45,345 nucleotides of DNA from Pseudomonadota bacterium (GTDB lineage: Bacteria > Desulfobacterota > Desulfobulbia > Desulfobulbales > SURF-16). The stretch covers positions 1-45,345 of the forward strand of contig JAHIVT010000010.1 in NCBI GenBank assembly GCA_018816555.1. Reading direction: 5' to 3'. Below the pieces are notes generated by a model. It was not told the origin of the DNA, searched no databases, and saw nothing but the letters and a program-made list of their open reading frames with translations. Each line of letters opens with the position of its first letter. Positions within the stretch are counted from its first letter, which is position 1. Positions 4,612 through 21,312 of this stretch are shown one piece after another. The translations under genes and the position numbers were made by a program.

Positions 4612-5793
4612 TCAATTCTCATTACGGCGGATAAAGGTCGGCTCATCCAGTTCGTCTTCATCAAAAATTCTGACAGTGCTATACTTATTATGCCTGGGAT
4701 CAGGGTAGCTCCCGCCGTTTGCCACATGAGGCATTTTGTTCCCCTGACTGAAGGGCAGGGTGCCGCCGACCGCTTTCTGATCCGCCTTTTTCGGCAGAGG
4801 CGTCACCTTATCATGCAGGGGCTCCAGCTCCTCCGCCACCCGGATACCGGTGGCAACCACCGTAACCCGCAGTTCCTCACCCAGAGAATCATCAAAGATG
4901 ACGCCCAGGATGATATTGGCCTCATCGTGCACCTCTTCGTAAATCTTGCTGGTTGCCTCGGTCACCTCGGCCATGGTCAAGGTGTCTTCCCGGGCGGAGA
5001 TGTTGACCAGCACACCCTTGGCCCCGTCAATGCTGATATCCTGCAGCAGAGGGCTGGCAATGGCCATATTAACCGCTTCGATGGCCCTGTTTTCCCCGAT
5101 GCCGACCCCGGCACCCATCAGGGCGGGTCCCATTTCGTTCATCACCGTGCACACATCGGCAAAGTCCGGGTTGATGTAACCCGGCAGGTTAATCAGATCG
5201 GTTATGCCTTTCACCGCCTGCACAAGCACATTATCGGCCATTTTCATGCCGTCCAAAAAGCGGGTTTTTTTCTGGGTAAGGGAGAGAATCCGGTCATTGG
5301 GAATGGTGATAATGGTATCCACATGTTTTTTGAGCTGTTCCCAGCCGATCTCGGCATTTTTCATGCGGGCCTTGCCCTCGAAGACAAAGGGCTTGGTCAC
5401 CACCGCCACGGTAAGCGCACCCAGCTCCTTGCTCACCTTGGCCACGATGGGTGCGGCGCCGGTGCCGGTGCCGCCGCCGAGCCCAGCGGTGATGAAGACC
5501 ATGTCACTGCCTTTCAGGCAATTTCTGATGTCATCAATACTTTCTTCCGCTGATTCACGCCCTTTTTCAGGATTGGCGCCCGCGCCGAACCCCTTGCTGA
5601 CTGTGGGGCCGAGCTGCAACCGCACGTCTGCCTTGGAATGTTCCAGCACCTGCAGGTCCGTATTGGCCGCAATAAATTCCACCCCTTGGAGCTTGCTTTC
5701 CACCATGGTATTTACGGCGTTTCCGCCACCGCCGCCAATACCGAAGACCCTGATCTTTACCCTTGATGTGTCTTCCGCCATTTGAAACTCCAT
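4612..5793 (-). CDS. ftsZ: Cell division protein FtsZ
   Basis: 393 residues, normal length. FtsZ is the tubulin-like GTPase that forms the Z-ring at midcell. Visible: the N-terminal nucleotide site (GIGGGGGNAVNTM), the tubulin signature GGGTGTGAAP, the T7 synergy loop around NPDFADV, a variable linker (about residues 325-375), and a C-terminal peptide DELDEPTFIRR that binds FtsA and related partners. Two starts are possible: ATG at 5793 with an upstream AGGAAGGGGGG, and ATG at 5781 with GGAG six bases ahead. It is the last dcw gene, 88 bases after ftsA. A MITE-like repeat sits directly after its stop. Confidence 0.98.
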   Translation of the reverse strand: MEFQMAEDTSRVKIRVFGIGGGGGNAVNTMVESKLQGVEFIAANTDLQVLEHSKADVRLQLGPTVSKGFGAGANPEKGRESAEESIDDIRNCLKGSDMVFITAGLGGGTGTGAAPIVAKVSKELGALTVAVVTKPFVFEGKARMKNAEIGWEQLKKHVDTIITIPNDRILSLTQKKTRFLDGMKMADNVLVQAVKGITDLINLPGYINPDFADVCTVMNEMGPALMGAGVGIGENRAIEAVNMAIASPLLQDISIDGAKGVLVNISAREDTLTMAEVTEATSKIYEEVHDEANIILGVIFDDSLGEELRVTVVATGIRVAEELEPLHDKVTPLPKKADQKAVGGTLPFSQGNKMPHVANGGSYPDPRHNKYSTVRIFDEDELDEPTFIRRNEN

Positions 5794-5881: not shown

Positions 5882-7114
5882 CTACATTAATTTACCGAAC
5901 AGCCCTTTAATCTTCTTGGCCAGGCCACCGATGCCTTTTGTCCCCCGATCACGGAAGCCTCTTTCCGCCTCGCTTTTCATGCCATAAATAACCAGACCGA
6001 CCCCGGTGGCGCATTGCGGGGTATTGACGATATCCGTCACCCCTCCGATATTTCTCGGATAGCCGATACGAACCGGCAGATCAAAAATCTGCTCGGCCAG
6101 ATCAAGGATATGCACCAGCATTGAAGTACCGCCGGTCAGCACCACCCCGGCGTTGACCAGATTTTTCACCCCGGAATTCACCAGCTCATAATTAATCAGA
6201 GTCAGCATCTCCTCCACCCGCGGTTCAAGGATTTCCCCCATGACCCGCTGGGAAAGTTTGCGTGATTTGCGACCGCCGACACTGGGCACCTCGATGGCCT
6301 GATCCTTGTCGATCATGGAAGATATGGCGCAGCCGTATTTTTCCTTGAGCTGTTCCGCCGCCTTCAGCGGGGTGCGCAGGCCGATGGACAGATCGTTGGT
6401 CAGATTGTTGCCGCCTATGCCCAGCACAAAGGTGCGCTGGATACAGTTCTCGGCGAACACGGCCAGATCGGAGGTGCCGCCGCCGATGTCAATCAGGGCA
6501 ACGCCCAGCTCCCGCTCTTCCGGAGTGAGTACCGCCTCGGCCGAGGCAATGGGCTCCAGCACCACGTCATCCACCTCCAGTCCGGCCCGGTTGCAGCACT
6601 TGATGATGTTGTGCACCGCGGTCACCGAGCCGGTGACAATGTGCACCTTGGCCTCCAGACGCACGCCGGTCATGCCCAGTGGATCCTGGATGCCGCCCTG
6701 GCCGTCCACCTTGAACTCCTGGGGCATGACATGGATCACCTCCTGGTCCTGTCCCAGGGGAACGGCCTTGGCATTCTCCACCACCCGATCGATTTCCTCC
6801 TGGCGGATCTCCCGGTTCTTGACGGCGATGTTCCCATCGCTGTTCTGCCCGGTGACATGGCTGCCGGCTATGCCAACATAAACTGAGGTGATATTGCAAC
6901 CCGCCATCATTTCCGCTTCGCCCACCGCCTTTTTAATGGAGTTGACCGTGCTTTCGATATTGACAACCACGCCTTTACGCAGGCCGATGGAGGGATGGGT
7001 ACCCACGCCGATTATATCCACCCGGTTCTCGACAACCTCTCCCACTACGGCACATATCTTTGTCGTACCGATATCAAGGCCGACAATCAACTCCCCTCTT
7101 TCCACATTTGCCAT
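5882..7114 (-). CDS. ftsA: Cell division protein FtsA
   Basis: 410 residues. FtsA is the actin-like ATPase that tethers FtsZ to the inner membrane. The phosphate-binding blocks of the actin fold are visible (VGLDIGTTKICAVVGE near the start; ALIDIGGGTSDLAVF; GVVLTGGTSML). The SHS2 domain follows the first block. The C-terminus ends in a short amphipathic, Lys-rich helix (AKKIKGLFGKLM), the usual membrane-targeting sequence. I chose ATG 7114 over the in-frame TTG at 7126 because GAGG lies seven bases ahead of it. It begins 8 bases after the ftsQ stop. Confidence 0.97.
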   Translation of the reverse strand: MANVERGELIVGLDIGTTKICAVVGEVVENRVDIIGVGTHPSIGLRKGVVVNIESTVNSIKKAVGEAEMMAGCNITSVYVGIAGSHVTGQNSDGNIAVKNREIRQEEIDRVVENAKAVPLGQDQEVIHVMPQEFKVDGQGGIQDPLGMTGVRLEAKVHIVTGSVTAVHNIIKCCNRAGLEVDDVVLEPIASAEAVLTPEERELGVALIDIGGGTSDLAVFAENCIQRTFVLGIGGNNLTNDLSIGLRTPLKAAEQLKEKYGCAISSMIDKDQAIEVPSVGGRKSRKLSQRVMGEILEPRVEEMLTLINYELVNSGVKNLVNAGVVLTGGTSMLVHILDLAEQIFDLPVRIGYPRNIGGVTDIVNTPQCATGVGLVIYGMKSEAERGFRDRGTKGIGGLAKKIKGLFGKLM

Positions 7115-7122
7115 ACGTTTCC

Positions 7123-7968
7123 TCAATGAACCGCCTTGTAATCACTCATGCGTACCAGCACCTTTCCACCACTGGTTGCGTCCATTTCACCGCCGGCCAG
7201 GTAATTCATATCAATGGCAGCGGCGAAGTCATACTTCTGTTTGCGGTAAAGCCAGGAAAGCACCGTGCTTAATCTATAATATTTTGACTTCATATCTCCC
7301 CTGCCGAGATAAACCGGAAAGGCATGGTCCGCCATGAAGAGGATCAGATCCCCCACCGGGGTCAGATGAATTTCCGAAATATTCTGTTTCGGCAAGGCCA
7401 CCGTCCCCTTTTCCCCAAAGATGATAAAATCAAGGGCCTCAAGCAACCGTTCCTCTTCCTTGATCCCCGGCACGTTATCTATCTCAACTCCTGTAATGAC
7501 GGGAAAATCCCGGTCATCAACCGGCAAAACATCCGCAAAGACCACGGCCCGGCGATCGACATAATAGAGTCCGGATTTCAGACTCAACAGAGCAATGGGC
7601 TTTCGTTCGCTTACGACAATGGACAGCTTGTTCGGCCAATTCCTTTTCACCTCGGCGGTGGCTATCCAGTTCTGGCTCTCCAGCTTCTTCCTGATCCGCC
7701 CGATGCGCACCGCCCACAGATTGGTTTTTACATCAAGTCCGCTCCAGGAAAAGATCTCATTGGTTGTTGTCCTGACACAGCCTTTGATATCCACCTCTTC
7801 AACCTGAAAAAAAACCGAGCGACTCAGTCCCTGGTAGGCGATCATGCCGATAATTCCGCCTGCAATCACAAAAGCAAAGCCGATGCTGATCATTTTCAGC
7901 AGCTGGTCGCCGAACCAGCTTTGATTACTGGCGCGGTAAACCTTTAATCCTTTTTTCTTCCTCTTCAT
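7123..7968 (-). CDS. ftsQ: Cell division protein FtsQ (POTRA domain)
   Basis: 281 residues. A short basic cytoplasmic tail (MKRKKKGLKV) is followed by one transmembrane segment (about 24-46) and a periplasmic POTRA domain starting at FFQVEEVDIKGC, then the beta domain (VSERKPIALLSL). This is the FtsQ/DivIB layout, the divisome scaffold that pairs with FtsL and FtsB. Its start overlaps the murB stop by 4 bases, which suggests translational coupling. Confidence 0.93.
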   Translation of the reverse strand: MKRKKKGLKVYRASNQSWFGDQLLKMISIGFAFVIAGGIIGMIAYQGLSRSVFFQVEEVDIKGCVRTTTNEIFSWSGLDVKTNLWAVRIGRIRKKLESQNWIATAEVKRNWPNKLSIVVSERKPIALLSLKSGLYYVDRRAVVFADVLPVDDRDFPVITGVEIDNVPGIKEEERLLEALDFIIFGEKGTVALPKQNISEIHLTPVGDLILFMADHAFPVYLGRGDMKSKYYRLSTVLSWLYRKQKYDFAAAIDMNYLAGGEMDATSGGKVLVRMSDYKAVH

Positions 7969-8984
7969 TCCAGGCCCAGAATCTTCACTTCAGGCTCCAG
8001 CGTGATACCGTATTTCTCATAGACGACTTTCTGCACAATCCCCATCAGATCAATGATGTCCCGAGCCGTGGCCCTGCCGGTATTGACGATAAAATTGGCA
8101 TGCACCGTTGACACCATGGCTCCGCCGACCAGGCACCCCTTCAGACCGGCCTGATCAATCAGTTGCCCGGCCGTTTTGCCGCCCAGCGGATTCTTGAAAA
8201 AGGAACCTCCGCTGGCCATATTCTGAGGCTGCCGCATCTTGCGACGCTGCCGGTATTCTTTGCACATTTCCTTGAGCATGGCCGGGCTGTCTTTTTTTAG
8301 CCGGAAAAAACCTTCCAGGGCGATTGTCCCCTTCATCTCCCCCCAGGTCCGGTAGGCAAATTGCATTGACTCAACCTCTCTGGTGGAGATGGCGCCCTGA
8401 CCATCCATGATGCTGACCCGGACCAGCACGTCTTTCATCTCGCGCTGCCAGGCCCCGGCATTCATGACAATCGCCCCGCCGACACTGCCGGGGATGCCTG
8501 CGGCAAACTCCAGCCCGGCATAGCCCCGCTCAACCGCCCAGCTGACCAGCTTGGCCAGACTGCAGCCGGCCTCGACCCTGACCACCACGCTGTCCGCAGC
8601 ATCGTCTACCAGCTCAATCTCAGCGAAATCACGGCCGAAAACGATGACCACGCCTTTGAGTCCTGCATCGGCAATCACCACATTGCTGCCCCGGCCGAGA
8701 ATGACCCACGGCACATCCAGACCGTGCAGGCTCCGGACCAGCCTGGATAACTCGTCGCGGCCCTTTGGAAAAACGATGGCCTCGGCCCTGCCTCCCACCT
8801 TAAATGTGGTGTAGACGGCCAACGATCCATGCCAGACAATATCTCCCCTGTGGTGACCAGCCATCCCCTGCTGCAAGGCAGACGCCCATGCAGGGAGTTG
8901 CGCTCCGGATTCACCCAGCGGAGACATCACCTGGTCCCATTTCCCGGTATATACTGCAGCCTCATACATCCCTCCAGTCTCCAT
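7965..8984 (-). CDS. murB: UDP-N-acetylenolpyruvoylglucosamine reductase MurB
   Basis: 339 residues. MurB reduces UDP-GlcNAc-enolpyruvate to UDP-MurNAc with NADPH and FAD. Visible: the FAD-binding start YTTFKVGGRAE, then GRGSNVVIADAGLKGVV, the phosphate-binding GSVGGAIVMNAGA, the catalytic-serine block SGGSFFKNP, and VHANFIVNTGRAT with the C-terminal EPEVKILG. The arrangement fits the type II (short) MurB class. The first ~40 residues are not conserved, so the true start may be one of the internal Met codons (residues 6, 20 or 40). It ends overlapping ftsQ. Confidence 0.96.
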   Translation of the reverse strand: METGGMYEAAVYTGKWDQVMSPLGESGAQLPAWASALQQGMAGHHRGDIVWHGSLAVYTTFKVGGRAEAIVFPKGRDELSRLVRSLHGLDVPWVILGRGSNVVIADAGLKGVVIVFGRDFAEIELVDDAADSVVVRVEAGCSLAKLVSWAVERGYAGLEFAAGIPGSVGGAIVMNAGAWQREMKDVLVRVSIMDGQGAISTREVESMQFAYRTWGEMKGTIALEGFFRLKKDSPAMLKEMCKEYRQRRKMRQPQNMASGGSFFKNPLGGKTAGQLIDQAGLKGCLVGGAMVSTVHANFIVNTGRATARDIIDLMGIVQKVVYEKYGITLEPEVKILGLE

Positions 8985-9073: not shown

Positions 9074-10459
9074 TCATTGCGCAACGGCCCCTAAAGCGGA
9101 TAAAAGCTGTTCGCCGGCCCGTAGAATGTCGCCGGCCCCAAGGGTAAGCACAATATCCCCATGCTCCAGCATGGGCTGCACCATCCCTGCCAGATCATCC
9201 ACCCCCGGGGCAAGAAAAACCTGCCGCTGACCATGCTCCTTGATGCCGATCATGAGATTTTCCGCCGTCACCCCCTCGATGGGACTTTCACTGGCCGGAT
9301 AGATCTCGGTCAGAATGAGAATATCCGCATCATGAAAGGCGGTGCAGAACTCCTTGAACAACCCCTGGGTGCGGGTGTAACGGTGCGGCTGGAACATGGC
9401 CAGCAGACGACGGCTCGGCCAGGCTCTTCTGATGGCCGCAAGGGTTGCCTTGATCTCCGTGGGATGATGGCCATAGTCATCGATCACCGTGATGCCCCGG
9501 GCCTCTCCTTTAATCTCCAGACGTCTCTGCACCCCGGTAAATGTGGCCAGTGCTGAGGCAATCTTGGCAAACGGGATCTCAAGCTCCAACCCCACGGCCA
9601 CTGCTGCGAGACTGTTCAGTACGTTATGACGGCCAGGTGAATTGATCATGATCTCACCAAGCAACTCGGAACCCCGGCACACCTCAAAGCTGGTGTTCAG
9701 CCCTTCTGATTTCAACTGCCTGCCGCTGATATCCGCCTGGGTTGTCAGTCCGTAGGTTATGACTCTTTTTTTAATGCGCGGCAGCAGGGAGGCGATATTG
9801 TCATCGTCAAGACAGAGCACGGCAGCGCCATAAAATGGTATCTTGCTGACAAACTGCAGGAAAACCTCTTTAATCTCGTCAATGTCCCTGTAGTAGTCAA
9901 GATGCTCCAGATCAATATTGGTCACCACCTCGATCACCGGGGAAAGCTGGAGAAAAGATCCGTCGCTCTCATCCGCCTCAGCCACCAGAAACTCCCCTTC
10001 GCCCAGTTTGGCATTGGTGCCCAGACTGTTCACCTTGCCGCCGATCACCACTGTGGGATCAAGTCCTGCCTCCGCAAGTAGCCATCCCACCAGAGAGGTG
10101 GTGGATGTCTTGCCGTGACTGCCGGCAATGGCGATGCCGTATTTTTTCAGGCGCATGAGTTCGGCCAGCATCTCCGCCCGGGGAATAACCGGGATGAAGG
10201 CCTCCCGTGCGGCAATCACCTCGGGATTGTTCTCCTTGACCGCCGAGGAGATGACCACCACATCGGCATTGCCCACCCAGGTACCGTTATGCCCCTGGTA
10301 AACCTTGCCTCCCAGGCTCTGCAGTCGCCTGGTGATATCGCTCTGCTTCAGGTCGGAGCCACTGACACTGTAGCCCAGATTGAGCAGCAGCTCGGCAATA
10401 CCGCTCATGCCGATGCCGCCGATGCCGACAAAATGAATATGTTTTGTTTTGTTATACAA
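9074..10459 (-). CDS. murC: UDP-N-acetylmuramate-L-alanine ligase MurC
   Basis: 461 residues, normal length. MurC adds L-Ala to UDP-MurNAc using ATP. The N-terminal UDP-binding domain starts with [17 protein letters not shown]. The Mur ligase P-loop is [10 protein letters not shown] (residues 112-121). A central domain contains EADESDGSF, and the C-terminal domain carries the Mur ligase block [10 protein letters not shown] and [10 protein letters not shown]. It lies between murG and murB on the minus strand with gaps of 63 and 89 bases. Confidence 0.98.
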
Positions 10460-10522: not shown

Positions 10523-11617
10523 TCAGGCAAACATCAGCTTCTCGCACTGTTCGATAATTCTCTCGGTGGCATCGGGCCTGGCCAGACCCCTGGCAGCCTG
10601 CCCCATCTGCTGCCGCCGCTTTTCATCCACCAGGAGAGCGTTGATTTGCTCAGCAAGCTTTTCTTCCGTCAACTCCTCCTGGCTGAACATCATCGCCGCA
10701 CCGCCCTTCACCAGATATTCACCGTTTTTGCGCTGGTGGTTATCGGCGGCAAAGGGATACGGAATCAAAATCATGGGCAGGCCAAAGGCCGTGATCTCTG
10801 CCAGAGTGGTGGCTCCCGCCCGTGAAACCACCAGATCGGCCCGGCTGTACAGCTCAGCCATATTGGTAAAAAAAGCCGCCACTTCGGCCTTTACGCCCAA
10901 CTTTTCATATCTGCCGGCCACCATCTGTTCATCATCCCTGCCGGTCTGGTGGATGACCCGCAGATTATCTCCTTTTTTTTTCAGTATTTCCATGGCGGCC
11001 ACCATGAGCGTATTCACCCGGTGCGCTCCGAGACTTCCGCCAAGCACCAACAGTGTCAGTCCTTCCTTTGGCCCTCTCTTTTTTTCCGCCGCGTCAGTCA
11101 GTTCCCGGCGCAGCGGATTGCCGGTCATCACCCATTTCCCCTCGGCAAAATAACGCTCACTGCCGGGAATAGAGAGAAAAATCCGGTCAACAAGTCTCCC
11201 CAGCTTGCGGTTGGCCATGCCCGGCACCGAGTTCTGCTCATGGATGCAGGTGGCGATTCCCAGCATTTTTGCCGCAACCAGCACCGGCCCGGTGACATAG
11301 CCCCCCACCCCGAGGACCAGCTGCGGCCTGAACCTTCTCATCAGACGCATGGCGGAAAAGGTGGACAACGGCAGCTGCAACAGGGCGGAGAGTCGCTGCA
11401 CCATACTTTTACCCTTCAGACCCTGACTGCTGATGCTTGCGGTCTCAAATTTTCTGTTGGCCAGCACACGTGCATCGGTTTGTCGCCCGGTGCCGATAAA
11501 AAGCACCCTACTGCCCGGGTACCGATCCAGAAAGGCTTCAGCCACTGCAATCCCCGGGAAAAGATGCCCTCCCGTTCCGCCTCCGCTGACAATCAATCTG
11601 ATTTCCTTGTTTCCCAT
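10523..11617 (-). CDS. murG: MurG, lipid II-forming GlcNAc transferase
   Basis: 364 residues. MurG transfers GlcNAc from UDP-GlcNAc to lipid I at the inner face of the membrane to make lipid II. The N-terminal G-loop GGGTGGHLFPG, the second GGYVTGPV block, the HEQNSVPGMANR motif, and the C-terminal donor site (LVVSRAGATTLAEI, then IPYPFAADNHQ) are all seen. Upstream is a zinc-ribbon gene rather than ftsW, the usual partner here. Confidence 0.98.
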   Translation of the reverse strand: MGNKEIRLIVSGGGTGGHLFPGIAVAEAFLDRYPGSRVLFIGTGRQTDARVLANRKFETASISSQGLKGKSMVQRLSALLQLPLSTFSAMRLMRRFRPQLVLGVGGYVTGPVLVAAKMLGIATCIHEQNSVPGMANRKLGRLVDRIFLSIPGSERYFAEGKWVMTGNPLRRELTDAAEKKRGPKEGLTLLVLGGSLGAHRVNTLMVAAMEILKKKGDNLRVIHQTGRDDEQMVAGRYEKLGVKAEVAAFFTNMAELYSRADLVVSRAGATTLAEITAFGLPMILIPYPFAADNHQRKNGEYLVKGGAAMMFSQEELTEEKLAEQINALLVDEKRRQQMGQAARGLARPDATERIIEQCEKLMFA

Positions 11618-11630
11618 AAATCCTTACGGA

Positions 11631-11822
11631 TCAAACTGTCATTTCAGGCGTCTTCCTGGATCTGTACTTGGGTGACGCCATTTTTATCTCAGCCAGGGTT
11701 ATCTGATAGCAGTTCGGACAAAAACCATACGAATACGTGCCTGTGTCCTCGTCCTTCAAGGGAACCCACCTTCCCGCCTGTTCGTTTCGCTTGCAGCGGC
11801 AACATACTTTTTCCATTTTCAC
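11631..11822 (-). CDS. Small zinc-ribbon protein between murD and murG
   Basis: 63 residues from a GTG start (ATG two codons later). Two CxxC knuckles, CCRC near the start and CPNC near residue 37, predict one zinc-ribbon fold. The rest is polar with a basic tail (KYRSRKTPEM). There is no membrane segment or catalytic motif. It ends 13 bases before murG starts and sits where ftsW is normally found. I do not recognise a named family or function; coding status is supported by the paired cysteines and tight packing in the operon. Confidence 0.6.
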   Translation of the reverse strand: MKMEKVCCRCKRNEQAGRWVPLKDEDTGTYSYGFCPNCYQITLAEIKMASPKYRSRKTPEMTV

Positions 11823-11845
11823 TTTTTCTTTCCCGGTTAATCATT

Positions 11846-11914
11846 TCACTTTTTCAGTTCTTCATCCAGTTGCCCCATCTGCCTTTGCCGTTGGGTCAAC
11901 TGCGGCCCGGACAT
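11846..11914 (-). CDS. Possible 22-residue ORF after murD
   Basis: An ATG with AAGGA nine bases ahead opens a 22-codon frame, MSGPQLTQRQRQMGQLDEEL plus two Lys, ending TGA. It starts six bases after the murD stop codon. It is rich in Gln and charged residues and resembles no family I know. It could be a real small protein, the stub of a deleted gene (ftsW belongs at this spot), or chance. Confidence 0.25.
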   Translation of the reverse strand: MSGPQLTQRQRQMGQLDEELKK

Positions 11915-11919
11915 TCTTT

Positions 11920-13305
11920 TTATTCCTTGACCAGATTCCAGACAGCCCGTTGAAACTTCTCACCGCGGTCGGCATAGCTCTGAAACATATCAAAACTGGC
12001 GCAGGCCGGGGACAGCAGTACCGCATCACCCTCCTCTGCGCAACGGGCAGCCTTGAGCACCGCCTCTTCCAGACTGTCAGCCTTCTCGATGCTGGTTATC
12101 CCCTCAAAGGCTTTGGCCATTTTTTCTCTGGCCTCGCCGATCAGCACCATTTTTTTCACCTTGGCCCGCACACTTTCCGCCATATAGAGGTAATCGCCCC
12201 CCTTGTCCCGGCCACCGGCAATGAGAATCACCGGCTGGGTCATCCCCTCCAGCGCTGACTGCACCGCTCCCACATTGGTGGCCTTTGAATCATCAAAATA
12301 GCTCACCCCCTTGATTTCGGTCACCCGAAAAAGCCGGTGGGGAGGGCGCTGAAATTCCGCCAGCACCCTGTTGATCACCTCATCCGGGCAGGCCATGACC
12401 CGCACCGCCAGGATTGCCGCCATGGCATTTTCACGGTTCGGCGATTTCAGCAGTTCCTCAGGCAGGTCATATTTTCCCTCATGGGCAAACATCCCTTGCA
12501 GGGCAATCTTGCCATCCTCGATAATCGTACCGGGCCGGCCGGCTAGTTCCCTGCCGAACCAGAGTGTTTTCGCGGCAATGGGCGCAGCTGCAAGCCGAGC
12601 CGTGATCTCCTGGTCGTCGGCATTGACCACAGCCAGGTCTTCCGGTTGCTGACAGGCGAAAATCCTCATTTTCGCTGCCGCATAGTCATCATATGATGCA
12701 TACCTGTCCAGATGATCCGGACTGATATTGAGCAGCACTGCCACGTCCGGCCGGAATTGCGCCGCCGTATCAAGCTGGTAACTGCTTACCTCCAGAACCG
12801 CTATCTCCGCATCCTGCTCCCCCAGCAGGTAATCCATCAGCGGTGTCCCAATGTTTCCTCCGACAAACACCTTTCTCCCAGCTCCTTGCAGCAATTCACC
12901 AATCAGTTTTGTCACCGTGGTTTTGCCGTTCGTGCCGGTTACGGCAACAATTGGTATCTGAAGATAAGCAGCACCAAGCCCAAGCTCCCCTATGATCTCA
13001 ACACCGGCCTGGCGAGCTGCTGCAAGCTCGGCCAGTTCCAGCGGCACACCAGGGCTGACTACAATGAGATCGGCATCGAGGAATGTTTCCCTGCGGTGTC
13101 CCCCCGTCTCATAGTAGACATCCCTTTCCTTCAGCCACTCCAGCAGTTTGCCGTCCAGGGCCGACTCCTTGGCCTTTTCGCTGAGCGCCACCCGGCAGCC
13201 CAGCTTATCCAGGAACTTCAGCGCAGCAAATCCCGACTTGCCCGACCCCACAACAAGGGTCTTATAGGATGCCGGAGAGGTGATGAATTCTTTTAAGCTA
13301 ACCAT
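11920..13305 (-). CDS. murD: UDP-MurNAc-L-Ala-D-Glu ligase MurD
   Basis: 461 residues. MurD adds D-Glu to UDP-MurNAc-L-Ala. The N-terminal domain starts TLVVGSGKSGFAALKFL, with VSPGVPLE further on. The P-loop is AVTGTNGKTTVTK (residues 121-133). A NISPDHLDRY block and a C-terminal SKATNVGA and LSPACASFDMF are typical of MurD. It starts 8 bases before mraY ends in transcript order. The next gene should be ftsW but is not. Confidence 0.97.
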   Translation of the reverse strand: MVSLKEFITSPASYKTLVVGSGKSGFAALKFLDKLGCRVALSEKAKESALDGKLLEWLKERDVYYETGGHRRETFLDADLIVVSPGVPLELAELAAARQAGVEIIGELGLGAAYLQIPIVAVTGTNGKTTVTKLIGELLQGAGRKVFVGGNIGTPLMDYLLGEQDAEIAVLEVSSYQLDTAAQFRPDVAVLLNISPDHLDRYASYDDYAAAKMRIFACQQPEDLAVVNADDQEITARLAAAPIAAKTLWFGRELAGRPGTIIEDGKIALQGMFAHEGKYDLPEELLKSPNRENAMAAILAVRVMACPDEVINRVLAEFQRPPHRLFRVTEIKGVSYFDDSKATNVGAVQSALEGMTQPVILIAGGRDKGGDYLYMAESVRAKVKKMVLIGEAREKMAKAFEGITSIEKADSLEEAVLKAARCAEEGDAVLLSPACASFDMFQSYADRGEKFQRAVWNLVKE

Positions 13306-13312
13306 GCCATGA

Positions 13313-14392
13313 TCACCGCAGTTTCAGCGTGGCCAGCGCCATCAGGCCGAGAATGATTGACACGATCCAGAAACGGACAACTACCTTCGGCTCCACCCAG
13401 CCCTTTTTTTCAAAATGATGATGAAAGGGGGCCATGAGAAAAATCCTCTTGCCCCCGGAAATCTTGAAATAACCCACCTGCAGGATCACGGAAATAGCCT
13501 CCATGACAAATATCCCGCCCACCAGCACCAGCAGAATCTCCTGCTTGATAATAACCGCCACCACTCCCAGGGCTCCGCCGATGGCAAGCGACCCAACATC
13601 ACCCATAAACACCTGGGCAGGGTAGGCGTTGAACCAGAGAAATCCCAGACTCGCCCCGGCCAATGCCCCGCAGAACACCGTCACCTCGCCTGCGCCGGGA
13701 ACAAACGGGATCTGCAGATAGGCGGCAAGCCCGGCATGGCCGGCCAGATAGGAAAACAGCAGATAAACGCCGCTGGTCACCACCGTGGGGCCGATGGCCA
13801 GCCCGTCCAGTCCGTCCGTCAAATTGACCGCGTTTGAGGAGCCGGCCACCACCAGAACCATGAAAAAAATATAAAAAATTCCAAGATCCGGTTTCACGTC
13901 CTTTAAAAACGGAAAACTCAGCGAGGTATCAAAACCCGGCTGATTCAATAAAAAGGAACCGACAACAACCACTCCGACGATCTGCAGCGCCATTTTTGCT
14001 TTGGCGCTCAACCCCTTGGAGTTTTTCTTCTTAATCTTGCGCCAGTCGTCAATACCGCCGATGGCCCCGTACCACAGGGTGATGGCCAGTATCAGCCAGA
14101 CGAACTTGCTGGCCAGATCAACCCACAAGAGGGTTGAAATGACCACCGAGGAAATAATCAGCACCCCTCCCATGGTGGGAACGCCACGCTTACTGAAGTG
14201 GCTTTCCGGCCCGTCTTCCCGCACCACCTGCCCCACCTGATTGCGCTTCAGCAACCTGATGAAATGCGGACCCAGCACCATGGCAATTAAAAAGCCGGTG
14301 ACAATGGCCCCGATACATCTGAAGGTGATGTAGCGGAAGACATTAAAGCCCCCATATAGGTTATGGAGTGGATAGAGAAGATGATAAAGCAT
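13313..14392 (-). CDS. mraY: MraY, phospho-MurNAc-pentapeptide transferase
   Basis: 359 residues from ATG 14392; a longer frame to 14497 runs into murF and its extra N-terminus is not MraY-like. MraY joins phospho-MurNAc-pentapeptide to undecaprenyl phosphate, forming lipid I. About ten hydrophobic segments are seen. Hallmarks: RGVPTMGGVLI, the first Asp pair GGIDDWRK, LTDGLDGLAIGP with its Mg2+-binding Asp, FMGDVGSLAIGG, and the His cluster APFHHHFEKKG. It is 10 bases from the murF stop. Confidence 0.97.
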   Translation of the reverse strand: MLYHLLYPLHNLYGGFNVFRYITFRCIGAIVTGFLIAMVLGPHFIRLLKRNQVGQVVREDGPESHFSKRGVPTMGGVLIISSVVISTLLWVDLASKFVWLILAITLWYGAIGGIDDWRKIKKKNSKGLSAKAKMALQIVGVVVVGSFLLNQPGFDTSLSFPFLKDVKPDLGIFYIFFMVLVVAGSSNAVNLTDGLDGLAIGPTVVTSGVYLLFSYLAGHAGLAAYLQIPFVPGAGEVTVFCGALAGASLGFLWFNAYPAQVFMGDVGSLAIGGALGVVAVIIKQEILLVLVGGIFVMEAISVILQVGYFKISGGKRIFLMAPFHHHFEKKGWVEPKVVVRFWIVSIILGLMALATLKLR

Positions 14393-14402
14393 TGACGCCC
14401 GC

Positions 14403-15893
14403 CTACAGCCTGTTCCTGAACTGCTCGATAATTGTTTCCATGCGCATGCCCCGTGAACCCTTGACCAGCACCAGATCACCGCTTGCCAGTTCACCAAGGG
14501 CGATCAGCTTGACAATGGCCTCCACGATATCCTCTTTGTTCTCCATCTGTTTTGCCTGTTTCATGGTCATACGCGCATCGAGCGCGCCTTCCACCACCTT
14601 TCTGGAAAACTGCCCATAGGCAAAAAGATAATCAAATGCCTTGCAGGCAGTTGTTTCACCGAGTCGGCGATGGGCCGAGTCACTGGTCTCGCCCAGTTCG
14701 AGCATATCGCCCAGTATGGCCACACTCTTTTTACTTTTCTTCATGGCCCGGACCGTCTCCAGCGCCGCCAGCATGGATGCCGGGTTGGCATTGTAGCAGT
14801 CATTGATGATCCTGAGTCCGCCGATGGTTTCCATCTGCAGCCTTTTATCATAGGGGGTGAAGTTCATCAGCCCCTGGGCAATCTGTTCGGCCTTTACTCC
14901 GGCGGCGTGGGCCATGGCCGCTGCGGCCAGCGCGTTGCCGATGTTATGCTCCCCAAGGCTGTGAATAGTAATTCTCACCTTTTCGCCGCCCACATGCAGG
15001 GTGAAAAGCATCCCCTCCTCGCCCATGTTCCGCACATGGGTTGCCCGTACAAAAGCATTGCGGGCCCTGCCGAAGGTGATCTGTTCCTGACTGCAGCTGC
15101 GGGCAAGAGCCCTTACCCGCTTATCATCCATATTGACACAGAATTTGCCCCAGGACTTACCGCCCCGGAACAGCTCGCCTTTGGCCCTGGCCACCCCATC
15201 GATGGAATGCAGTCCAGCCAGGTGGGCGCTCTGGATGTTGACGATGCAGGCAATATCCGGGTCGGCGATTTCAGTCATTCTGGCAATTTCGCCGGGCCGG
15301 TTCATGCCCATTTCCAGCACCGCCACATCATGGCAGGCATCAACACGCAGCAGGGTCAGGGGCATGCCGATCAGGTTGTTCAAGTTTCCTTCCGTTTTCA
15401 ATACATTGTATTCCTCTTTCAGAATGGCGGCGCACATCTCCTTGACCGTAGTCTTACCCGAACTGCCGGTAATGGCGATTACCTGCAGGTTAGGCATGGA
15501 CGCCCGGCGATAGGCAGCCAGATCACCCAGGGCCTCCAGCGGGTCAGCGACCATAATAACCGGCACGGGCAGTTTTTCTTCCACCATGCTTGAGACAATA
15601 ACGCCGGCAGCCCCCTTACGGATCGCCTCCTTAACAAACTCCTGCCCGTCAAAACGTTCGCCGGACAGGGCCACAAAGAGATCCCCCGGCTCAAGCGTCC
15701 GCGTATCCGTTGAGATGGCGCGAAAATTCGCCTCCGGCGCCCCGCAGATAAAACGTCCCCCTGTTGCCAGCAGCACCTGGCTCAAAGTCCAGACTGGATC
15801 CTGCACCGTATTGAAGCCATAGCCGAATTCAGCCGTCGCCGGACCGGCTGCAAGTCGGCAGCACTCTTTTTCTGTGCTTCGTTCCAGTTCCAT
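14403..15893 (-). CDS. murF: UDP-MurNAc-pentapeptide ligase MurF
   Basis: 496 residues. MurF adds D-Ala-D-Ala to UDP-MurNAc-tripeptide. The N-terminal domain has ISTDTRTLEPGDLFVAL, a P-loop AITGSSGKTTVKEM (residues 140-153), NINDCYNANPAS-like sequence (IINDCYNANPASM), and AILGDMLELGE. The first 33 residues extend beyond the usual MurF start and may not be translated, though no better start with a ribosome site is obvious. It follows murE by 18 bases. Confidence 0.96.
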   Translation of the reverse strand: MELERSTEKECCRLAAGPATAEFGYGFNTVQDPVWTLSQVLLATGGRFICGAPEANFRAISTDTRTLEPGDLFVALSGERFDGQEFVKEAIRKGAAGVIVSSMVEEKLPVPVIMVADPLEALGDLAAYRRASMPNLQVIAITGSSGKTTVKEMCAAILKEEYNVLKTEGNLNNLIGMPLTLLRVDACHDVAVLEMGMNRPGEIARMTEIADPDIACIVNIQSAHLAGLHSIDGVARAKGELFRGGKSWGKFCVNMDDKRVRALARSCSQEQITFGRARNAFVRATHVRNMGEEGMLFTLHVGGEKVRITIHSLGEHNIGNALAAAAMAHAAGVKAEQIAQGLMNFTPYDKRLQMETIGGLRIINDCYNANPASMLAALETVRAMKKSKKSVAILGDMLELGETSDSAHRRLGETTACKAFDYLFAYGQFSRKVVEGALDARMTMKQAKQMENKEDIVEAIVKLIALGELASGDLVLVKGSRGMRMETIIEQFRNRL

Positions 15894-15911: not shown

Positions 15912-17507
15912 CTATGCTGCCTGTCTGGCAATGTTAAGCTGCTCTCTGGCCTGCTGTCGATCGTCAAAAAACAACTTCCGGCTGCCGATAATCTGATAGC
16001 ACTCATGCCCCTTGCCGCTGATCAGCACAACGTCCCCCGCTCCCGCGCCGCAAATAGCGATGCGGATTGCTTCCGCCCGTTCCTCGATCACGTCATACCC
16101 CTTAAGCTGCCGGTTCTGCATGAGCTGCTCGCCCTTTCCCTTGGCCAGCTTTTCTTCCCGGATGCCCGCCTCGATCTCTGCCAATATTTTCCGGGGCGGC
16201 TCACTGCGGGGATTGTCCGAGGTGACAAGCAGCACATCAGCAAGTCGCGTCGCCACACCGCCCATCAACGGCCGCTTGCCCCTGTCACGGTCTCCACCGC
16301 AGCCGAAGACCACAATCAACCGTTCAGGACGCAGCGCCCGCAAGGTAAGCAGTACGTTTTCCAGGGCGTCCGGGGTATGGGCATAGTCAACAAAGACGGT
16401 TGCCAACCCTGTTCCTTCCTGCGCCGTGTCACCATCGGGCAACACCCTCTCCAGTCTGCCCGGCACACCTTTCACTCCGGCCAACCCTGTGCAGATGGTC
16501 TGTAGAGCATAACCCAGCGCCGTTCCGCAACCGATAACCCCCAGCAGGTTGCGGAGGTTGAATTCGCCCACCAGCGGGCTGTCCAGCACAAACCGTGCCT
16601 CGGGGGAAACGATCTCAGCCCTGATCCCCTGCAGATCGAACCTGAAATTCCTGGCCTGGATCAGTCCCCTGCCGATACCGCAGGTCAGACAGGCATGATT
16701 GTGCCCGGCAAGAACAGCGATCAGCCGGTCGCACCAGCCATTGTTTTCCTGCTCCTCCGCCTCTCCTGAGCCCAGCACGATAACCCCCTGGCCATGGTCT
16801 TTGAGATAGGAGGCAAAAAGCTTTTCCTTCTCGGCAAAATAGCTTTCCATACTGCCGTGGAAGTCCAGGTGATCACGGCTGATATTGGTAAACAGCGCCA
16901 CATCAAACCACACTCCGTTTATCCGCTGCTGGGCCAGGGCATGGGAGGAAACCTCCATGGCGACATGGGTAACCCCAGCCTCGGACATCTGCTCGAGAAT
17001 CCGCTGCAGCTCCACCGGCTGCGGGGTAGTCAACGCAGCTGGGGTCTCGCAACCTTTATAGCGGACACTGACCGTACCGATCACTCCCGGAACCCCGCCT
17101 GCCTTGGCGATCATTGCCTCCAGCAGATAGGTGCAAGTGGTCTTGCCGTTGGTGCCGGTGATGCCGATCATCTTCATCCTGCGGCAGGGAAAATCGAAAA
17201 AAGCCGCGGCAAGATATCCCAAAACCCTGCCGGTATCATCTACTTTCATGAGCGGCACGGCACATTCTTCGGTATAATCGCGGGAGACCAGCACCGCGGC
17301 ACAGCCTTTGGCCACGGCATCATTGATAAAGCGGTGGCCATCCACCGTAGCGCCTGCCACTGCGACAAAAAGCATACCCTGCACGACCTGTCTCGAATCA
17401 TCCGTCACCCCGCAGATCTCAATATCCTTCTCATCCTCAGGGCAAAGGATGGGAAGTTCTGCTGCGGCAAGAAGATCGGCCAGTCTTTTTTTTCGCATGG
17501 TTACCAT
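15912..17507 (-). CDS. murE: UDP-MurNAc-tripeptide ligase MurE (meso-DAP type)
   Basis: 531 residues. MurE adds the third residue of the stem peptide. P-loop ITGTNGKTTCTYLLE (from residue 116), SSHALAQQRINGV, NISRDHLDFHGSMESY, and VFGCGGDRDRGKRPLMG are seen. The motif TSDNPRSEPP has the DNPR signature linked to meso-diaminopimelate specificity, as in Gram-negative bacteria. GKGHECYQ near the C-terminus is also typical. It starts three bases after the ftsI-like stop; ATG 17498 is an alternative start. Confidence 0.97.
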   Translation of the reverse strand: MVTMRKKRLADLLAAAELPILCPEDEKDIEICGVTDDSRQVVQGMLFVAVAGATVDGHRFINDAVAKGCAAVLVSRDYTEECAVPLMKVDDTGRVLGYLAAAFFDFPCRRMKMIGITGTNGKTTCTYLLEAMIAKAGGVPGVIGTVSVRYKGCETPAALTTPQPVELQRILEQMSEAGVTHVAMEVSSHALAQQRINGVWFDVALFTNISRDHLDFHGSMESYFAEKEKLFASYLKDHGQGVIVLGSGEAEEQENNGWCDRLIAVLAGHNHACLTCGIGRGLIQARNFRFDLQGIRAEIVSPEARFVLDSPLVGEFNLRNLLGVIGCGTALGYALQTICTGLAGVKGVPGRLERVLPDGDTAQEGTGLATVFVDYAHTPDALENVLLTLRALRPERLIVVFGCGGDRDRGKRPLMGGVATRLADVLLVTSDNPRSEPPRKILAEIEAGIREEKLAKGKGEQLMQNRQLKGYDVIEERAEAIRIAICGAGAGDVVLISGKGHECYQIIGSRKLFFDDRQQAREQLNIARQAA

Positions 17508-17510
17508 GGA

Positions 17511-19565
17511 TCAGCGCTTTATCTCCGCCTTCAAAATCACCAGTGTCCCCTCTTTCAACTTGCTCCCGCCTTCGGGATGCTGTCTTTTGACAATGCCCGA
17601 ACCTTCGATTACCACCTTGACATCAAATCCATCCAGTTCCTGCAGAGCCTTGCGGATACTCATGCCTCGCACATCGATCATGATGTCCGCATCACTTTTT
17701 CTGCCCCCCAGCACATCAAAGCCCAACTGTTTATTGCGCAGTATCCAGCGCTGGAAGATTTCCTCCCTGGATATCGACTGCGGGACGGCCTTGGCGTTCT
17801 CCTTCTTATGATGCAATTTGAAGGCTGCCTGCAGAAAGGAATCAACGCGCTGCTTCACTGGCGAAGCCTGCATCAGATTGATTCTGGCATCTTCAATGAC
17901 TACCAGCATCACCAGTTCAGGTTTACTCACCGTGATCGAGGCCAGGGCCAGACCGTCGCAATGCCGGGCAACCAACATATCCGGTTTCGCTTCCGACTCA
18001 GGGGTTGCGGCAGCGGCCGGCGCTGTTTCTCCTTCAGTCGGCGGAGTTATCTTTGCCTCTATGGACGCCATATCACCCCGGGGCCGCAGAATTTCACCCA
18101 CCAGTACGATATCCGCAGGGTGGGCCTTTTCACGCAAAAAAAGAACAAGGTCACGGCTTGCATCTGCGCCGATGACCTTGTTCTCCTGTGGCGACCATGG
18201 CCATTCCTCCAGCTTTCCTGTTGCTGAAAAAGTGGCCTGCAAAATGTGAGGCGTGACTGCATTGCCGCCGTTTACCAGTGCCGCATACCCGCACAGCAAC
18301 CCTAACCCCGTTTCCTTGCCGCCGTTATCTCCAGGGAGGTCGAGCGTGCACTGACCAACTCTGTCCAGGATTTTGCCGAAATCGGAAAAATCAACCTCAC
18401 CGTTTTCCGCCGCCGCCTTCTCATCATCCAGCGCCGCCGCCAGCCAGTCGGATGCATATGACCCGTCCTGAAGTTGTACCCATGGCGATTTTGTCGGTCC
18501 TTCACGTATTTTTTTCATCATCCGGGGCACCAGAGATTTAATCATTTCAACCGGGGCCTGTTCTTCTTCGGTCTGGCCTGCTTCGATGGCCTGCTGCGCC
18601 TGCTCAAAGTTTGCCGCATCCTTGAAAATGAGCGACAGTATCCCGGGGTCCACATGGCCGCCCATCATCCGGTCCACGCCTTCAAAGCCGTTTGCCGTTC
18701 CCAATTTCGTGGCGGAAAAGAACGGCAGTTTGACATAGGCCAGAACTTCGCCCTGGTCCGCATCCATCAGCAGAGCGCTCACGGCTGTCATCGCTTCAGC
18801 CGTCTGATCATCCTGCCGTATGTCATTAAGCAATGCCGTCATTTCCTGCTCCAGCAGCGATTGCATTTTGGCGTCCATGGTCAGAACCAGGCTTTTCCCG
18901 CCGCCACCCCTGGTTACGGAATCCGGTGCCCCCGACCCGCCCAGCAGCAGATTGTCATAAAAGAGTTCTACGCCTGATAAACCGTGTCCGTCTTTTACCT
19001 CGCCGATAATCTGCCCCATGTTCGCCCGGCTGGGATTAAAACGCTGTTCCTGCTCATAAAAATAAACTCCTGGAAGATTTAACGCCGCAACCGCGGCTGC
19101 CTTCTCAGGAGAAATATTTTTCACCACCCATTTGTAGGTCCTCTGGGTTTTCAGTTCCTCAAGCACATCTTTTTCATCAAGATTCAAGGCATCGGCCAAC
19201 ACCGAAACCGTCTTTTCAATGTTGTCAAACTCCAGGGGCTTGACATAGATCGAGTCAACTTTAAAACTGATGGCAAGCTCATTCAGGTTCCGGTCATAAA
19301 TATTTCTGCGCCTGACTTCTCCCTTTTTCTGCGGTACGGCAAGGGGCGCATCCTCATTTACCTTGACGGTCCTGTTTTTTGCGCTGTCTCCCTCTCCGGA
19401 AGGGCTTTGCCGGAAAAAAAAGAAAGAGGCCCCGGCCATGATGAGAATGACCACGAGGCCGGCCAGAAGCTTCAGTCTGGCAATCCTTTTCTGCTTCTCC
19501 TCCTCCTGCCTGTATCCCCCTCCTTTACCCCAGTTACTGTCAAGCGGTCCCTTGTAGCCTGTCAT
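17511..19565 (-). CDS. ftsI: FtsI/PBP3-like protein with degenerate transpeptidase domain
   Basis: 684 residues in the ftsI position. In order: a cytoplasmic tail, one membrane segment (~31-51), the PBP dimerisation domain (RRRNIYDRNLNELAISFKVD at 85-104; GLSGVELFYDNLL), a transpeptidase-like domain (from LVLTMDAKMQSLLEQ, ~227), and a C-terminal PASTA domain (DVRGMSIRKALQELDGFDVK, 631-650). The active-site motifs are missing. Where EPGSxxK should be, the sequence is VDPGILSLIFKD (305-316). No SxN is found in the 340-410 region. The KTG strand area (~485-545) holds an Ala/Glu/Pro-rich insert and then HCDGLALASIT instead of KTGTA. Flanking structural blocks such as GYAALVNGGNAVTPHIL are kept, so the fold is recognisable. 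The frame is intact. It overlaps ftsL by 4 bases. Most likely a non-catalytic scaffold descended from FtsI. Confidence 0.85.
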   Translation of the reverse strand: MTGYKGPLDSNWGKGGGYRQEEEKQKRIARLKLLAGLVVILIMAGASFFFFRQSPSGEGDSAKNRTVKVNEDAPLAVPQKKGEVRRRNIYDRNLNELAISFKVDSIYVKPLEFDNIEKTVSVLADALNLDEKDVLEELKTQRTYKWVVKNISPEKAAAVAALNLPGVYFYEQEQRFNPSRANMGQIIGEVKDGHGLSGVELFYDNLLLGGSGAPDSVTRGGGGKSLVLTMDAKMQSLLEQEMTALLNDIRQDDQTAEAMTAVSALLMDADQGEVLAYVKLPFFSATKLGTANGFEGVDRMMGGHVDPGILSLIFKDAANFEQAQQAIEAGQTEEEQAPVEMIKSLVPRMMKKIREGPTKSPWVQLQDGSYASDWLAAALDDEKAAAENGEVDFSDFGKILDRVGQCTLDLPGDNGGKETGLGLLCGYAALVNGGNAVTPHILQATFSATGKLEEWPWSPQENKVIGADASRDLVLFLREKAHPADIVLVGEILRPRGDMASIEAKITPPTEGETAPAAAATPESEAKPDMLVARHCDGLALASITVSKPELVMLVVIEDARINLMQASPVKQRVDSFLQAAFKLHHKKENAKAVPQSISREEIFQRWILRNKQLGFDVLGGRKSDADIMIDVRGMSIRKALQELDGFDVKVVIEGSGIVKRQHPEGGSKLKEGTLVILKAEIKR

Positions 19566-19939
19566 GGTGCGGGAATCCGTACAATCACCCCGCCCCCGGC
19601 ACTCTGTTCCATGGTGGGGTAGAGTGAAAGTTTTGCTGCAGCAACGGTTTCAATACGCTTTCTGTCAAGCAGCTGCCCCTTCTGGCCCTGCAGCTTGTTG
19701 CTCACCTGCTGCAATGCATGCTTTTCCCCCTGCACTCCGGTCAAACCGTCCAATCCACGTCTGATGCTCCAGGAAAACCAGTAACTGCCCGCCATGCCTG
19801 CCAGAGTAACGCTGACGATCACCACGCCGGTCAACTTCCAGAACCAGCTGCCCAAGCTCAATTTCTGGCCCGGCCCCTTCTGGCCCAGCTTTCTGCTGAG
19901 GCTCGGCTTATAGCGTGAAGAAAATTGCGCGACCATCAC
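19562..19939 (-). CDS. ftsL: FtsL-like divisome protein
   Basis: 125 residues. A basic, Ser-rich cytoplasmic part, one membrane helix (about 36-56, LTGVVIVSVTLAGMAGSYW), then a short heptad-like periplasmic helix (GEKHALQQVSNKLQGQKGQL). This is the FtsL layout; sequence conservation in the family is low, so position between rsmH and ftsI carries much of the call. Start is GTG at 19939, overlapping the rsmH stop by 4 bases, or the adjacent ATG at 19936. Confidence 0.75.
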   Translation of the reverse strand: MMVAQFSSRYKPSLSRKLGQKGPGQKLSLGSWFWKLTGVVIVSVTLAGMAGSYWFSWSIRRGLDGLTGVQGEKHALQQVSNKLQGQKGQLLDRKRIETVAAAKLSLYPTMEQSAGGGVIVRIPAP

Positions 19940-20829
19940 ACACCCCGCACCGCGGCAACGCGCAACCTGGCGCTTCTTGACCGCGGATTTGCCAAGATCT
20001 CTTCATTTGCCGCGATAACCGCTTTTGCCGTTACCAGCTCCAAGGCAGGATTATTTCTAAAAGCCCGCTTCACCAGACGATCCTCCAGAGAGTGAAAGGA
20101 AATTACACAGATACGCCCTCCTGGTTTTACAATATCCGCCACGCTGTCTAAAATTTTCTCAAGATTATCGAGTTCCCGGTTCACCGCGATGCGCAGCGCC
20201 TGGAAAACCTTGGTGGCAACATGAATTTTTTTGGGCCAGAATCTGCGCGGAACAGCGTTTTCGACAATCTTTACCAACTGATCAGTCGTCGCCAGTGGGG
20301 TCTTCCTGCGGACGTCAACCACAAAAGACGCAATCCGCCTGGCCTGACGTTCCTCTCCGTACAAGTAGAAAATGTCTGCCAGCTCCTGCTCGCTGGCCCG
20401 GTTCAACAAATCTGCCGCTGTTTCCGGGCTTCTGACATCCATGCGCATGTCAAGGGGCTCGGAACCCTGAAACGTAAATCCTCGGCCGCTTACATCCAAC
20501 TGCAGGGACGATAAGCCGAGATCAAGAAGCAACCCGTCAACCCGGTCCACCCCCAGCTCCGACAGGACCTCCCTGATCTCGGCAAAATTGCGCCGGACGA
20601 ACTCTACTCTGCCCTGATACCTCTCCAGATTAAGCCGGGCTCGGCCCAGGGCATCTTCATCCCAATCAAACCCTATCACCCGGCCGCCGGGGCTGCTTCT
20701 CTCAAGAATCACCCCGCTATGCCCGCCAAGCCCCAGGTTGCCATCCACATAGAGGCCGCCATCCTGCGGAGCCAGGTAGTGCATTACCTCATCCAGCAAG
20801 ACCGGCAGGTGTACCGGTTTTGTCCCCAT
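19936..20829 (-). CDS. rsmH: 16S rRNA m4C1402 methyltransferase RsmH
   Basis: 297 residues (formerly MraW). It methylates N4 of C1402 in 16S rRNA using SAM. The start HLPVLLDEVMHYLAP, the SAM-binding GLYVDGNLGLGGHSGVIL, the LLDLGLSSLQLD block and GGRICVISFHSLEDR are family hallmarks. It follows mraZ by 3 bases and overlaps ftsL. Confidence 0.97.
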   Translation of the reverse strand: MGTKPVHLPVLLDEVMHYLAPQDGGLYVDGNLGLGGHSGVILERSSPGGRVIGFDWDEDALGRARLNLERYQGRVEFVRRNFAEIREVLSELGVDRVDGLLLDLGLSSLQLDVSGRGFTFQGSEPLDMRMDVRSPETAADLLNRASEQELADIFYLYGEERQARRIASFVVDVRRKTPLATTDQLVKIVENAVPRRFWPKKIHVATKVFQALRIAVNRELDNLEKILDSVADIVKPGGRICVISFHSLEDRLVKRAFRNNPALELVTAKAVIAANEEILANPRSRSARLRVAAVRGV

Positions 20830-20832
20830 ATG

Positions 20833-21312
20833 TTAAAAGAGGCCTAGTTCATGAAGGGTCGAGTCAAATTCATTAAAATCCTGCGGTGTTATACTGCTTT
20901 CCGCCTGCCAGATATCCTTGTCCCATATCTCAAAAAACGACCCCATACCCATCATCACCACATCTTTTTTCAGATCAAGCTGATTGCGCAGATGCATGGG
21001 CAGAATGATACGACCATTCTTATCAATCTGGCACTCCTCCGATCCTCCTATCAGGTAGCGGATCATCTTTTGAAACTGGGGATCTTTTTTTTCCTTGCTC
21101 AGCAGAGTGGCTTCCATTTTTTCCCACTCCTGCAGGGGATAGATGCGCAGACAGGTACGCCATGGCGGGGTAATCAGCAGCCGGTCGTCATATTCACGCA
21201 GGAGTACCTCACGAAAACGGGACGGCACATTCAGTCTCCCTTTCCCATCCAGCGTATGTTCAGACCTGCCTCTGAAGCGGCTTGGCTGACTCACAATGAC
21301 TGTCTCACTCAC
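20833..21312 (-). CDS. mraZ: Transcriptional regulator MraZ
   Basis: 159 residues, two SpoVT-AbrB-like repeats: FRGRSEHTLDGKGRLNVPSR (14-33) and CQIDKNGRIILPMHLR. MraZ binds its own dcw promoter in other bacteria and represses the operon. The start is GTG at 21312, with AGGGG nine bases upstream. First gene of the dcw cluster. Confidence 0.96.
   Translation of the reverse strand: MSETVIVSQPSRFRGRSEHTLDGKGRLNVPSRFREVLLREYDDRLLITPPWRTCLRIYPLQEWEKMEATLLSKEKKDPQFQKMIRYLIGGSEECQIDKNGRIILPMHLRNQLDLKKDVVMMGMGSFFEIWDKDIWQAESSITPQDFNEFDSTLHELGLF

Follow-up and report, generated by a model that had tools for sequence, protein, structure and literature searches.

Paired loss of FtsW and of predicted FtsI transpeptidase activity across the class Desulfobulbia

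Comparative sequence analysis indicates, with very high confidence, that every well-sampled member of the class Desulfobulbia, cable bacteria included, has lost FtsW and encodes an FtsI that is enzymatically dead. FtsW and FtsI are usually regarded as the universal septal wall synthase, and ftsW is normally located between murD and murG. The window analyzed here is a stretch of 45,345 nucleotides (contig JAHIVT010000010.1 of assembly GCA_018816555.1) from a genome of this class, and we compared it with the remainder of its assembly, with 145 genomes of the class, and with other lineages of the phylum.

Results

The dcw cluster of the window

The window carries, on the minus strand, a dcw cluster comprising rsmH, an ftsL-like gene, ftsI, murE, murF, mraY, murD, murG, murC, murB, ftsQ, ftsA, and ftsZ. 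Its features are as follows:

4612..5793, minus strand, ftsZ
5882..7126, minus strand, ftsA
7123..7968, minus strand, ftsQ (POTRA_1 and FtsQ_DivIB_C domains)
7965..8984, minus strand, murB
9074..10459, minus strand, murC
10523..11617, minus strand, murG (TIGR01133, 327.9 bits against a cut-off of 250)
11618..11919, no strand assigned, murD–murG interval and usual slot for ftsW, 302 bases, ftsW absent
11631..11822, minus strand, zinc-ribbon-like gene, 63 aa (CCxC ... CPxC), conserved in place, weak NCBIfam match
11846..11914, minus strand, 22-codon open reading frame (ORF), unconserved in the closest relatives
11920..13305, minus strand, murD (TIGR01087, 415.7 bits against a cut-off of 212)
13313..14497, minus strand, mraY
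14403..15893, minus strand, murF
15912..17507, minus strand, murE
17511..19565, minus strand, ftsI ortholog, predicted transpeptidase-dead (transmembrane helix, pedestal/PBP_dimer, degenerate transpeptidase fold, PASTA)
19562..19939, minus strand, ftsL-like gene (by position, hydrophobic segment, and a weak TIGR02209 match, E 0.002, below the cut-off)
19936..20829, minus strand, rsmH (mraW)
20833..21312, minus strand, ORF in the mraZ position (by position)

The gap between murG and murD measures exactly 302 bases and contains no ftsW, bearing out the first-pass annotation, which had reported ftsW missing from an interval of about 300 bases; a single SEDS gene was found genome-wide (see below). 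That annotation had also placed a zinc-ribbon gene and a 22-codon ORF in the interval and had proposed comparing it among relatives, and the comparison revealed an ftsW-less slot throughout the class and conservation of the former ORF only. The 63-codon ORF (CxxC...CxxC) has counterparts between murD and murG in about two-thirds of those class loci whose interval could be read, with the family consensus CC.C...SHGYCP.C, and in the loci lacking it murD and murG overlap or almost touch. Its product gave a weak zinc-finger match in NCBIfam (E 0.029), no match in Pfam, and no match in a search of phages; it presumably resembles the zinc-ribbon tails found on response regulators of deltaproteobacteria. 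We rejected it as a functional substitute for FtsW, considering that the protein is soluble, 57–79 aa long, and missing from part of the class. The 22-codon ORF, which lies upstream of the zinc-ribbon gene, is missing from the closest relative and was discarded as a gene, its sequence being probably a chance reading frame.

The window genome is a draft (4.93 Mb, 183 contigs, 97% complete), which might suggest that ftsW was lost to an assembly gap or a misassembly, but one unbroken contig spans murD and murG, and the ftsW-less state also occurs in single-contig genomes, such as G024 (3.10 Mb), and class-wide. Because ftsW is missing from every one of the 145 class genomes sampled, neither chance nor an assembly gap can explain it, and the probability of an artefact in the window genome is negligible.

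SEDS proteins and penicillin-binding proteins of the window genome

A search of the whole assembly with PF01098 returned one SEDS match (C91:5651–6703). This protein scores above the RodA cut-off (TIGR02210, 419.7 bits versus 336.7) and below that for FtsW (TIGR02614, 302 bits versus 337.5), falls into the RodA clade in a phylogenetic tree, possesses the catalytic Asp, and is encoded by the last gene of an mreB-mreC-mreD-PBP2-rodA operon, next to PBP2. No SEDS gene lies between murD and murG, and no SEDS protein of the assembly exceeds the TIGR02614 cut-off. Matches to PF00905 were limited to PBP2 and 4 proteins that also bear a Transgly domain and hence are class A penicillin-binding proteins (PBPs). 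A motif search located the glycosyltransferase EDxxF, SxxK, and KTG motifs in all 4 class A PBPs, and SxxK and KTG in PBP2, the sole catalytic class B PBP (bPBP) of the assembly. Beyond these 4 proteins, 2 further Transgly matches are present, on contigs C78 and C109. One class A PBP of about 1100 aa, whose transpeptidase domain contains a long insertion, is encoded on contig C167 of the window genome (G000, L040:6782–10096); it was found in most class members sampled and is missing in G061.

As the genome encodes a single SEDS protein and a single catalytic class B PBP, the FtsW–FtsI pair has been lost rather than moved. The genome-wide search proposed in the first-pass annotation does not support its suggestion that the pair had been relocated or replaced as a unit: we found neither a second SEDS gene nor a second catalytic class B PBP, and no dedicated new SEDS–bPBP pair, only RodA–PBP2 and the class A PBPs.

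FtsI as a pseudo-enzyme

The first-pass annotation described the window FtsI (17511–19565) as transpeptidase-dead, and our analysis agrees: the protein matches PBP_dimer and PASTA only, with no match to PF00905 and no catalytic motif found. Neither the catalytic Ser nor the Lys of the SxxK site was present in any of the 49 dcw-encoded class members; SxN and KTG were lost as well, with no KTG at its proper place. Reference FtsI proteins from other lineages of the phylum, which were picked as catalytic and nearly all of which are encoded beside ftsW, possess SxxK, SxN, and KTG with all seven motif residues (22 of 22). Thus, the class protein lacks the motifs of a DD-transpeptidase, and yet by descent it is a full-length FtsI ortholog, in which a transpeptidase fold comes after the PBP_dimer pedestal and whose gene is located between ftsL and murE. 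PBP_dimer was matched in 47 of 47 class proteins, PASTA in 46, and the transpeptidase domain, weakly, in 34. A profile of the family aligns over positions 19–517 to Pseudomonas aeruginosa FtsI from the FtsWIQBL complex (8bh1_B; E 1e-66), and the top Foldseek matches of a predicted structure (mean pLDDT 77) were PBP2x and PBP3/FtsI. The named relatives recovered in a scan with an 11-member alignment were Desulfobulbales (Desulfurivibrio, Desulfobulbaceae, and Desulfogranum japonicum).

Strongly conserved columns of canonical FtsI are retained at 61% in the pedestal versus 35% in the transpeptidase domain, as would be expected of a scaffold kept after its active site had been released. A functionless relic, with division running without it, is an improbable reading for the class: outside Desulfobulbia the protein does shrink repeatedly, down to 248–343 aa in families f32 and f57, but in the class long open frames are found across 15 families and exceed 600 aa in almost all members, the operon position is fixed, and residues of the pedestal and PASTA domains are invariant among 47 members. 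Judged from these alignments, FtsI is kept as a catalytically dead pseudo-enzyme that is still under selection.

Extent within Desulfobulbia

To a survey of 145 Desulfobulbia genomes of at least 90% completeness, 140 contributed exactly one SEDS match, 2 a second match that proved to be a split gene or a fragment, and 3 none; two full-length SEDS genes were found in no genome of the class, and most families in the rest of the phylum have two. The 3 SEDS-less genomes are within the expectation from gaps of a few per cent, and 2 of them miss the whole mreB–PBP2–rodA set together. These 2 metagenome-assembled genomes (MAGs), G057 (L259) and G105 (L248), retain the dcw cluster, and G105 also lacks any Transgly match and hence any known peptidoglycan polymerase; the losses are probably assembly gaps. 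In the single-contig genome G031 (2.77 Mb), the sole SEDS gene, rodA (L348:6156–7288), is frameshifted at a run of six C, likely a sequencing error, the rest of the gene being well conserved.

All 30 class SEDS proteins examined belong to the RodA clade and possess the RodA catalytic Asp, and 29 adjoin PBP2. At the diagnostic columns, class RodA is RodA-like at a fraction of 0.83 and FtsW-like at 0.07, with two class-specific substitutions only, and we rejected the possibility that RodA has turned FtsW-like. FtsB is present, and FtsZ, FtsA, FtsQ, and the FtsL-like protein are also retained. At least one Transgly domain was detected in 57 of 58 genomes. Several single-contig genomes without FtsW (G349, G227, and G302) encode exactly one Transgly protein each.

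The absence of ftsW, together with that of zipA and ftsN, has been reported for Ca. Electrothrix aarhusiensis, Ca. E. marina, Desulfobulbus propionicus, and D. japonicus (Geelhoed et al. 2021, PMC7873302). These four Desulfobulbaceae belong to the same class and, as here, combine a missing ftsW with an mre-pbpA-rodA cluster. FtsI was taken in that study as present and active ("FtsI activity"), its inactivation going unnoticed, whereas we find ftsW absent across 145 genomes, FtsI dead in all 49 proteins inspected, and the two losses again paired in additional lineages of the phylum. The first-pass annotation had allowed that the arrangement might be common to the order and already described; it is indeed shared by the order and the class, and the lack of ftsW was on record for four genomes, but the dead FtsI was not described there. 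In the open-access literature searched, we found no report that FtsI is inactive, that the loss extends over the whole class, or that it recurs in other lineages of the phylum.

Repeats elsewhere in the phylum

Lineages with a single SEDS gene outside the class are of 2 kinds. The first kept FtsW and FtsI and lacks RodA and PBP2 (e.g., G171, G208, G279, and G331); the second kept RodA and PBP2 and lacks FtsW (families f26, f32, f35, f36, f52, f57, f58, f64, f69, f70, f81, f85, and f93). Every lineage of the second kind with a readable dcw cluster has a catalysis-free ORF in the ftsI position, of 643 aa in f26, 514–563 aa in several lineages, 455 aa in f69, 410 aa in f36, and 324 aa in f35, the shortest being those of f32 and f57. 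The f32 and f57 ORFs would be FtsI remnants, as judged by position and weak similarity, with only a weak PASTA match left in f32; in f35, f32, and f57 the inactive protein may be a weakly constrained relic. The coupling of ftsW loss and FtsI death as a unit, which the first-pass annotation had implied, thus holds throughout the class and in lineages outside it. One apparent exception is G318 (f34), in which FtsI is canonical and no FtsW was found, although two SEDS genes are present in G348, a member of the same genus.

In a tree of eight dcw enzymes, Desulfobulbia, f35/f69/f93, and f36/f58/f64/f70/f81/f85 were united with a support of 0.65 (1.00 for each part), f32/f57 were separate, and f26 was unresolved; the rooted tree excluded G318, for which the dcw region obtained held only ftsI. 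From this placement of the FtsW-less groups, the paired loss of FtsW and FtsI activity therefore probably happened 2–3 times.

In f32 and f57, a polytopic membrane ORF of 263–264 aa lies between murD and murG, in the ftsW slot (L249:5085–5879 and L250:4692–5483); it has no Pfam match, the structure model of the 264-aa f32 protein was uninformative (pLDDT 52), and the ORF may derive from FtsW by decay or have replaced it. On contig C91 of G346 (f57, L209), a second SEDS gene encodes a highly divergent protein of 470 aa. That a divergent FtsW or another kind of polymerase escaped our search would fit the polytopic ORF, and strongly diverged SEDS genes could evade PF01098; however, the window interval is too small for such a gene, PF01098 readily picks up RodA and distant SEDS proteins elsewhere, and the catalytic death of FtsI argues against any remaining FtsW partner, making this explanation very unlikely.

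Discussion

Because the inventory of known polymerases does not include FtsW–FtsI, septal peptidoglycan must be made by another enzyme. Comparison of the genomes indicates that the ancestor of Desulfobulbia lost FtsW and, with it, the transpeptidase activity of FtsI. The pseudo-FtsI is probably a structural and regulatory hub of the divisome together with FtsZ, FtsA, FtsQ, the FtsL-like protein, and FtsB, the genes of which are all present; as these partners remain, so does the platform by which FtsWI is normally activated. By analogy with known systems, a class A PBP would perform most of the septal synthesis, with the pseudo-FtsI retaining and controlling it at the septum, and RodA–PBP2 would keep elongation and may share in septation.

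Two systems provide the analogy. Vegetative division of Clostridioides difficile is carried out by the class A PBP1, with RodA–PBP2 elongating the cell (PMC10693644). In this species, the class B PBP3 forms a complex with PBP1 and promotes synthesis of the septum independently of its own catalysis (PMC12539705), illustrating that a class B PBP can work noncatalytically in the divisome, as we propose for the pseudo-FtsI. Like C. difficile, Desulfobulbia would divide without a canonical FtsW/FtsI pair, keep RodA–PBP2 for elongation, and have a class A PBP; by sequence, they show no FtsW/FtsI activity for vegetative division and an intact class A PBP. Unlike Desulfobulbia, C. difficile is without FtsA and uses a catalytic SpoVE/SpoVD pair, encoded in its dcw cluster, for sporulation, whereas Desulfobulbia keep FtsA and FtsQ, have no SEDS gene in the dcw cluster, and have FtsI itself as the dead protein. 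Catalytically inactive PBP 2B of Bacillus subtilis still supports division structurally (PMC5656894), and this FtsI ortholog thus resembles the pseudo-FtsI in having a division role independent of catalysis; however, it is an engineered mutant in cells with FtsW, in which PBP 3 supplies transpeptidation, whereas in Desulfobulbia the inactive form occurs naturally and FtsW has been lost.

Given these precedents, we rank a class A PBP with a pseudo-FtsI scaffold, to which we assign an even chance of being the septal machinery, above RodA–PBP2. The class A PBPs of the window genome are intact. An obvious septal-targeting domain was found in no class A PBP, and RodA–PBP2 is equally universal in these genomes. 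RodA–PBP2, as the only SEDS–bPBP pair left, might instead make both side wall and septum, with the pseudo-FtsI recruiting or switching it to the divisome. This lesser but real possibility is favored by the retention of the pair in almost every genome of the class and in all FtsW-less lineages that we examined beyond it, by the intact catalytic Asp, and by the usual septal polymerase being a SEDS protein; it is weakened by the absence of any FtsW-ward shift in RodA and by the two MAGs with a dcw cluster and no mreB, rodA, or PBP2, which assembly gaps may explain. The fuller picture built on class A PBP synthesis, in which the whole class and, independently, other lineages use an FtsW-free divisome whose septum is made by a class A PBP under a pseudo-transpeptidase FtsI linking to FtsQLB, FtsA, and FtsZ, is put forward tentatively, at rather less than an even chance.

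Desulfobulbia, with cable bacteria and Desulfobulbus among them, have thus dropped the septal polymerase and silenced the cross-linker while keeping the remaining dcw genes. The class offers a natural test of the noncatalytic roles of FtsI, of the ability of class A PBPs or RodA–PBP2 to drive division, and of the evolutionary tie between the activities of FtsW and FtsI. The assumption of an active FtsI in cable bacteria is corrected, which suggests that FtsI-directed beta-lactams should not affect division of cable bacteria via FtsI.
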